DNA of 64,000 nt from the NCBI GenBank assembly GCA_014584705.1, contig JACTMJ010000016.1, forward strand, positions 1-64,000, read 5' to 3'. Origin of the DNA: Acidobacteriota bacterium (GTDB taxonomy: Bacteria > Acidobacteriota > Terriglobia > Bryobacterales > Bryobacteraceae). The position numbers were made by a program, and so were the translations under genes. The notes beneath the pieces were generated by a model. That model saw only the letters and a list, made by a program, of their open reading frames with translations, searched no databases and was not told the origin of the DNA. Below, in pieces: positions 63,675 to 64,000 of this stretch (position 1 is its first letter; every line of letters starts with the position of its first letter).

Positions 63675-64000
63675 ATGAGCACCTATTACCTTCGAGCGGA
63701 AGCAGTGAACTTTGAAGATTTTGTCTTGGATACCTCCGATCTCAGCACGATACGCGGAGGAGGACTACTTCTCCTGGAAGCATTCGAGGGAATCCTGGAT
63801 AGGTTCCCCGAACTGGTTGAAATATATAAAGGCGGATCGATCGGATTTTATTACTTCAAAGCGCCGGGGGCGGAGGCGGCGGAGACAGTTCGCTCCAGGG
63901 TTGAAGCAGAGCTTCGGGCCGGGAACCGCAAGTATGCGACCTTTGTCGTGGACATAGAGCAGGGCCCGGATATCGCGGACCCGAGCTTGGATAGCAATAC
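63675..64000 (+). CDS. Start of a Cas10/Cmr2-like palm-domain protein, cut by the window end
   Basis: 108 codons are visible. Strand 1 ([10 protein letters not shown]), a helix with [19 protein letters not shown], and a hairpin [14 protein letters not shown] followed by a helix ([11 protein letters not shown]) and a strand (KYATFVVDI) reproduce the order of a Cas10-type palm domain; GGSI at 53-56 lies where the active palm has GGDD. In Cas10 the first palm is inactive and the second carries GGDD, which would lie beyond the window. Start: ATG at 63675; an in-frame ATG at 63663 overlaps the upstream gene. A minimal CRISPR polymerase (mCpol) or diguanylate-cyclase-like protein is an alternative. 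The third gene of the module. Confidence 0.6.

Follow-up and report, generated by a model that had tools for sequence, protein, structure and literature searches.

The gene that runs off the end of the window (the whole 64,000-nucleotide stretch of Acidobacteriota DNA analysed here) almost certainly encodes the Cas10 of a type III-D (III-D2-like) CRISPR system lacking an HD domain. We propose, at a probability of roughly 0.65 for the scheme as a whole, that this III-D Cas10 makes a messenger, most likely SAM-AMP, which activates a CorA-like membrane protein encoded immediately upstream and is degraded by the adjacent phosphodiesterase NrN. SAM-AMP is a rare alarm molecule; the systems from which it is known to date are, to our knowledge, of type III-B.

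The window comprises bases 1-64000 of a 157,054-base contig. The locus beyond its edge was read as a separate segment, L002, in which positions equal the window position minus 60000. The features of the locus are as follows (contig coordinates):

61064..61864, + strand: nrn, DHH-family (NrN-type) phosphodiesterase of 266 aa with the IDHH motif kept (PADLOC DHH_CorA, E 2.8e-32)
61892..63670, + strand: corA, CorA-like membrane effector of 592 aa (PADLOC CorA, E 5e-66)
63663..64000, + strand: cas10, N-terminal palm 1 in the window; the ORF runs on to contig position 65519 (618 aa)
63831..63842, + strand: GGSI codons of the palm-1 hairpin, residues 57-60 (in-frame reading, alignment, model)
64404-64412, + strand: palm-2 DGN, residues 248-250 (ORF, alignment)
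64653-64664, + strand: palm-2 GADE, residues 331-334 (ORF, alignment)
about 65552-67504, outside the window: Cas7-Cas5 fusion (PADLOC Csm4 CAS-III-D, E 1.9e-59)
67497-71162, outside the window: triple-Cas7 fusion of 1221 aa (TIGR03986, 245.8 bits, cut-off 161.35)
71465-71946: CRISPR array 1, 7 repeats of 37 nt and 6 spacers
about 72334-73458 (L002:12334-13458): RT::Cas2, between the two arrays
73713-74355: CRISPR array 2, 9 repeats and 8 spacers
74422-75579, minus strand: Cas6

Identity of the Cas10 gene

The cas10 ORF can open at 63663 (MDEL..., MDELMSTYY...), where it overlaps the stop of corA; the start at 63675 (ATGAGC) chosen in an earlier sequence-only reading is an internal Met. The gene is truncated by the window edge and is not a short one. 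The Pfam match for Cas10 stayed below the cut-off (E 0.22 only). PADLOC Cas10 models matched the protein with E 2.8e-19, and a five-sequence profile found the Cas10 of PDB 9wxh (9wxh_B) with E 6.8e-115.

An AlphaFold2 model built from 66 sequences (mean pLDDT 80, pTM 0.85) consists of two tandem ferredoxin-like palm domains and a C-terminal helical part. Palm 1 (residues 6-100) carries the GGSI hairpin, and palm 2 contains the strand 241-249 (DGN) and the hairpin 326-340 (GADE). The best fold match, extending over nearly the whole length, is the III-D Cas10 8s9v_C (Z 22.9, rmsd 3.0, 449 residues aligned); the III-D Cas10s 8s9t-8s9x head the ranking (Z about 22), followed by P. furiosus Cmr2 with ATP (Z 17.3). 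The PADLOC, profile and fold matches agree with the sequence-only reading, which had called the protein Cas10-like from its first residues and had looked to the rest of the gene for a second palm. That palm is there, with DGN and GADE. The outcome that would have counted against Cas10, a protein of about 110-150 residues with no second palm, did not materialize, and an unrelated short ferredoxin-like protein is ruled out by the 618-aa two-palm Cas10 fold. An HD nuclease domain, which was also looked for in the full-length protein, was not recognised anywhere in the 618 residues, and palm 1, which begins at about residue 5, leaves no room for one.

The two palm domains

The string KGGSIGFYY is encoded in frame as residues 56-64. 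In the model, palm 1 has the order β-strand 6-15, α-helix 27-40, β2-β3 hairpin (52-56 / 60-67), α-helix 70-84 and β-strand 93-100. The sequence and the model thus confirm the earlier placement of KGGSIGFYY on the palm hairpin, with a helix before it and the VVDI strand after it. Because Ser59 of the GGSI motif is invariant in the aligned Cas10s (66/66), KGGSIGFYY is not a chance string. The hairpin follows the pattern G-[A/G]-S (consensus G-A-S), and N16, R31 and Q130 are likewise invariant across the 66 sequences. The full-length protein and its model also uphold the suggestion that the GGSI stretch belongs to a first, inactive palm followed by a second one. What did not hold is the description of GGSI as standing in place of GGDD: ordinary III-D Cas10s of the same phylum (ten examined) mostly have GG[GN]x or similar at this hairpin, and the window's clade has G-A-S with its invariant Ser. 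By these alignments, GGSI lies in the normal non-catalytic palm and is not a broken GGDD.

In palm 2, D248, G249 and N250 are each found in 66/66 aligned Cas10s, as is D333, while residue 334 is Glu in 64 and Asp in 2 of them. The window protein keeps the metal-binding carboxylates D248, D333 and E334, positions that are acidic throughout the clade (66/66). Read literally, the GGDD motif is absent and residues 331-334 are GADE, which alters only the second glycine of the clade consensus W-G-G-D-E; all ten examined ordinary III-D Cas10s have GGDD. GADE is rare, occurring in 2/76 loci, and the other carrier (L048) has CorA as well. In PMC11229360, a motif list drawn from loci with effectors includes GGDE and AGDE, and GADE is absent from it. 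The expectation of a catalytic GGDD further downstream was therefore right about the second palm, with its catalytic DGN and acidic pair, and wrong about the literal motif. Homology and gene context make it highly probable that the Cas10 is catalytically active; a filter for the literal GGDD motif would miscall such a Cas10 (GADE) as dead.

The effector complex

The operon has the order NrN - CorA - Cas10 - Cas7/Cas5 fusion - triple-Cas7 fusion, followed by the two CRISPR arrays and Cas6. The III-D type of the Cas5/Cas7 fusions and the position of the Cas10 in the tree, apart from III-B, place the system in type III-D (III-D2-like). A single-protein gRAMP of type III-E / III-I is ruled out by the three-protein complex with its full Cas10 (gRAMP models scored 124 and 29 bits, far short of their respective cut-offs of 700 and 800).

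The same three-protein architecture is seen in PDB 9wxh/9wxi/9wxj (Cas10 of 592 aa, RAMP fusion of 635 aa, TIGR03986 RAMP of 1235 aa), for which we found no paper. Each of the large proteins of the locus has a counterpart among the three chains of 9wxh, with E 7e-115 (profile), 7e-70 and 4e-88. The 9wxh Cas10 combines a G-A-S hairpin with GGDE, whereas the window Cas10 has GADE. Among the structures in the library, the nearest Cas10 fold (Z about 22) is that of the Synechocystis type III-Dv complex (8s9t-8s9x; PMC11026444), which, like the window system, is a III-D complex with fused Cas7/Cas5 subunits; its Cas10, however, is only 12-14% identical to the window Cas10 in the structure alignment, and what corresponds to the triple fusion is divided among several proteins.

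CorA and NrN

The window NrN matches the PDB NrN 9lq9 (E 1.2e-20) and shares 35% identity with the NrN encoded at a III-B CorA locus. Of the dedicated SAM-AMP-degrading enzymes (NrN, DEDD or lyase), the locus thus has an adjacent NrN with IDHH. The CorA has two C-terminal hydrophobic segments and the sensor residues R206-R207 and D296-D297-R298, of which R206-R207 and D296-D297 align with the pairs R152/R153 and D219/D220 of the B. fragilis CorA. Its model (pLDDT 85) ends in long helices, and the best fold matches, all weak, are CorA, CmaX and ZntB. No CARF protein is among the named PADLOC hits in the window operon.

The B. fragilis type III-B CorA/NrN system (PMC10600005) likewise combines an HD-less Cas10 with CorA and NrN, and the RR/DD pairs of CorA and the DHH of NrN are common to both. 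It differs in having a Cmr (III-B) complex, GGDD and D70/E151, where the window has a III-D complex, GADE, Ser59 and Gln130. The CorA-linked III-D loci of Actinomyces (PMC11229360) also join type III to CorA; they are reported without SAM-AMP-degrading enzymes and with Csm6-2, whereas the window has NrN and no recognised CARF protein.

The genes nrn, corA and cas10 have a G+C content of 52-54%, compared with 63% over the window's first 60 kb, a contrast that suggests horizontal acquisition. Upstream of nrn, at window positions 60045-60197, an open frame contains a (V)DT-rich stretch encoded by short degenerate repeats of the type TGTCCACGG. Outside CRISPR loci, a separate CorA-like clade occurs in the same phylum (L019:5395-7242, on G000:C6; L020, L021 and L023-L026), with one member in the window's own genome. 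These proteins keep the sensor Arg/Asp and have Lys/Glu at the positions of Q460/Q462 of the CRISPR clade.

Relatives of the system

When 84,980 species were scanned, each represented by one genome, 78 loci emerged, distributed over Acidobacteriota, Pseudomonadota, Thermodesulfobacteriota, Chloroflexota and others. The scan loci and loci fetched from the same phylum gave 76 distinct Cas10 loci; for one of them (L068) the tree row is the second, III-D1-like Cas10 of that locus. CorA was found in 49 of the 76, NrN in 22 and both in 19, all of these counts being lower bounds, as many contigs end nearby. Five ORFs join NrN to CorA, and in a Geobacter sp. MAG (L054:14781-17783, PJFB01000015.1) a triple-Cas7-type III-D subunit carries NrN at its C-terminus (residues 751-986). 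The latter fusion links NrN physically to a III-D effector complex. A DEDD phosphodiesterase was found in two loci only, for which reason DEDD was rejected as a general substitute for NrN. Ten outgroup III-D loci yielded neither CorA nor NrN, and the two of these that were checked encode CARF nucleases. Relatives of the Cas10 were not found in viral contigs; among plasmids there was one weak match only, on Tistrella mobilis pTM1, where it is annotated as hypothetical.

In the Cas10 tree the window's clade stands apart from both ordinary III-D Cas10s and III-B CorA-linked Cas10s (SH-aLRT 100), and in the CorA tree the III-B CorAs are nested among those of III-D (99 and 97); the two trees were computed by a quick method and contain some long branches.

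According to a 2025 classification (PMC12669027), the ligand of III-D CorA is unclear and III-D loci do not encode any of the known enzymes that cleave SAM-AMP, the latter being part of the reason for leaving it undecided there whether SAM-AMP is what III-D CorA senses. For the clade described here, the occurrence of NrN in 22/76 loci, five times fused to CorA and once to an effector subunit, contradicts the statement on cleaving enzymes. Part of this finding may already be visible in PMC11229360, which states that most CorA proteins are accompanied by degrading enzymes and gives the subtype of each locus in a figure. With NrN present in III-D loci, the question whether III-D CorA senses SAM-AMP becomes directly testable.

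Nature of the messenger

In B. fragilis, SAM-AMP is formed by Cas10 from ATP and SAM and binds CorA; NrN cleaves SAM-AMP and not pApA or cA2-6, and the CorA mutants R152A/R153A and D219A/D220A lose immunity (PMC10600005). By homology, the window system would work as follows. Cas10, the Cas7-Cas5 fusion and the triple-Cas7 fusion would form a three-protein effector complex. When its crRNA pairs with foreign RNA, palm 2 (DGN ... GADE) would bind metals and the donor ATP, palm 1 with its GGSI hairpin would probably help to hold the acceptor substrate, and Cas10 would make a small diffusible messenger, most likely SAM-AMP. The messenger would activate the upstream-encoded CorA-like membrane protein, presumably with disruption of the membrane, and NrN would degrade it. 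Homology and gene context point to SAM-AMP as the probable product, because both sensor pairs, RR and DD, are retained in the window CorA, as is IDHH in the window NrN.

The two acidic positions of the III-B synthase of SAM-AMP (D70 and E151 in B. fragilis, taken as FPD[KR] and LD[SG]LE in two fetched III-B loci) have no acidic counterpart in the 66 aligned clade Cas10s, where the hairpin register between III-B and III-D follows the order of secondary-structure elements and not a superposition, hhalign having given no usable alignment. The clade has Ser59, Arg/His127 (R127; His in 7/66) and Gln130 in this region, and neither its hairpin nor the stretch of the next helix around R127/Q130 holds a conserved acid. 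Column 120, at least one helical turn away, is acidic in 61% of rows and is Arg in the window Cas10. If the product is as proposed, the clade would therefore make SAM-AMP by means of a differently built acceptor pocket, or make a close relative of SAM-AMP. We tentatively extend this proposal, at somewhat less than even odds, to the widespread III-D clade: its Cas10s would produce SAM-AMP or a closely related molecule by way of an acceptor pocket that was built independently of the III-B Asp/Glu pair and features an invariant Ser and Gln in palm 1, the G-A-S hairpin and a WGGDE palm 2, while drawing on a CorA/NrN pool common with III-B. In that case Cas10s would have acquired the synthesis of SAM-AMP, by a new origin or by rebuilding, on no fewer than two occasions, and the clade would offer a second, differently built active site for comparison with the III-B synthase.

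The lack of the acidic acceptor residues, together with the basic R127 (His in 7/66) kept in the following helix, would also fit an active Cas10 that makes cyclic oligoadenylates (cOA) and a window CorA with a cOA ligand, in line with speculation on the Actinomyces CorAs that accompany Csm6-2; a cA6-activated CorA subclass is proposed in PMC11229360. We consider this unlikely. NrN is present here and in 22/76 loci, yet the B. fragilis enzyme does not cleave cOA; the window CorA retains the residues on which the SAM-AMP system depends; both palms of the clade are unlike those of the III-D Cas10s found in loci with CARF nucleases; and the window operon has no CARF protein among its named hits.

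Slightly less likely still is another SAM-AMP-like conjugate, with a different nucleoside-containing acceptor, recognised by the clade's CorA and NrN. The acceptor-side palm is indeed rebuilt (G-A-S hairpin, invariant Ser59 and Gln130) when compared with the III-B synthase and with ordinary III-D Cas10s, while CorA and NrN are conserved, but the CorA sensor residues are the same as in the III-B proteins, and the intermingling of III-B and III-D CorAs in the tree favours one common ligand.

A catalytically dead Cas10, acting only as a ligand sensor or scaffold, is very improbable: the rarity of GADE, its absence from the accepted motifs in PMC11229360 and the loss of Cas1, a sign that the locus may be decaying, would fit it, but DGN and both palm-2 carboxylates are kept, the other GADE Cas10 also has CorA, the ORFs of NrN, CorA, Cas10 and the two RAMP fusions are all intact, and without a messenger neither CorA nor NrN would serve a purpose, so the earlier conditional reading of a "dead, ligand-sensing polymerase homologue" finds no support.

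CRISPR arrays and adaptation genes

Between the two arrays, the reading frame of an RT with an intact YADD motif continues from about residue 306 (contig about 73240) into a Cas2 without its first strand, and Cas1 is missing; the relatives have RT-Cas1 and a separate Cas2. No literature on an RT-Cas2 fusion was found, and the junction may be an assembly error. An RT-Cas1 adaptation module was not recognised, as no Cas1 is fused to the RT or lies beside it, and the 99%-complete genome gave a single Cas1 match, which lies in a type II-C-like Cas9 locus whose repeats are different. Because Cas1 has been lost from the locus and the only genomic Cas1 is that of the II-C-like locus, the arrays are probably frozen while the interference genes are intact. 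Neither array, searched as a whole, matched any of 50,697 phage records, and three 28-nt spacer stretches had no exact match in viral contigs.

The type II-C-like locus is a second CRISPR system of the same genome and comprises Cas9 (1030 aa), Cas1 and an array of 66-nt period at the end of a contig (L125:7057-11808, G000:C24). In the III-D locus, each array is preceded by a copy of a 209-nt segment (L002:11294-11502 and L002:13542-13750); the two copies are 88% identical, as if the leader had been duplicated.
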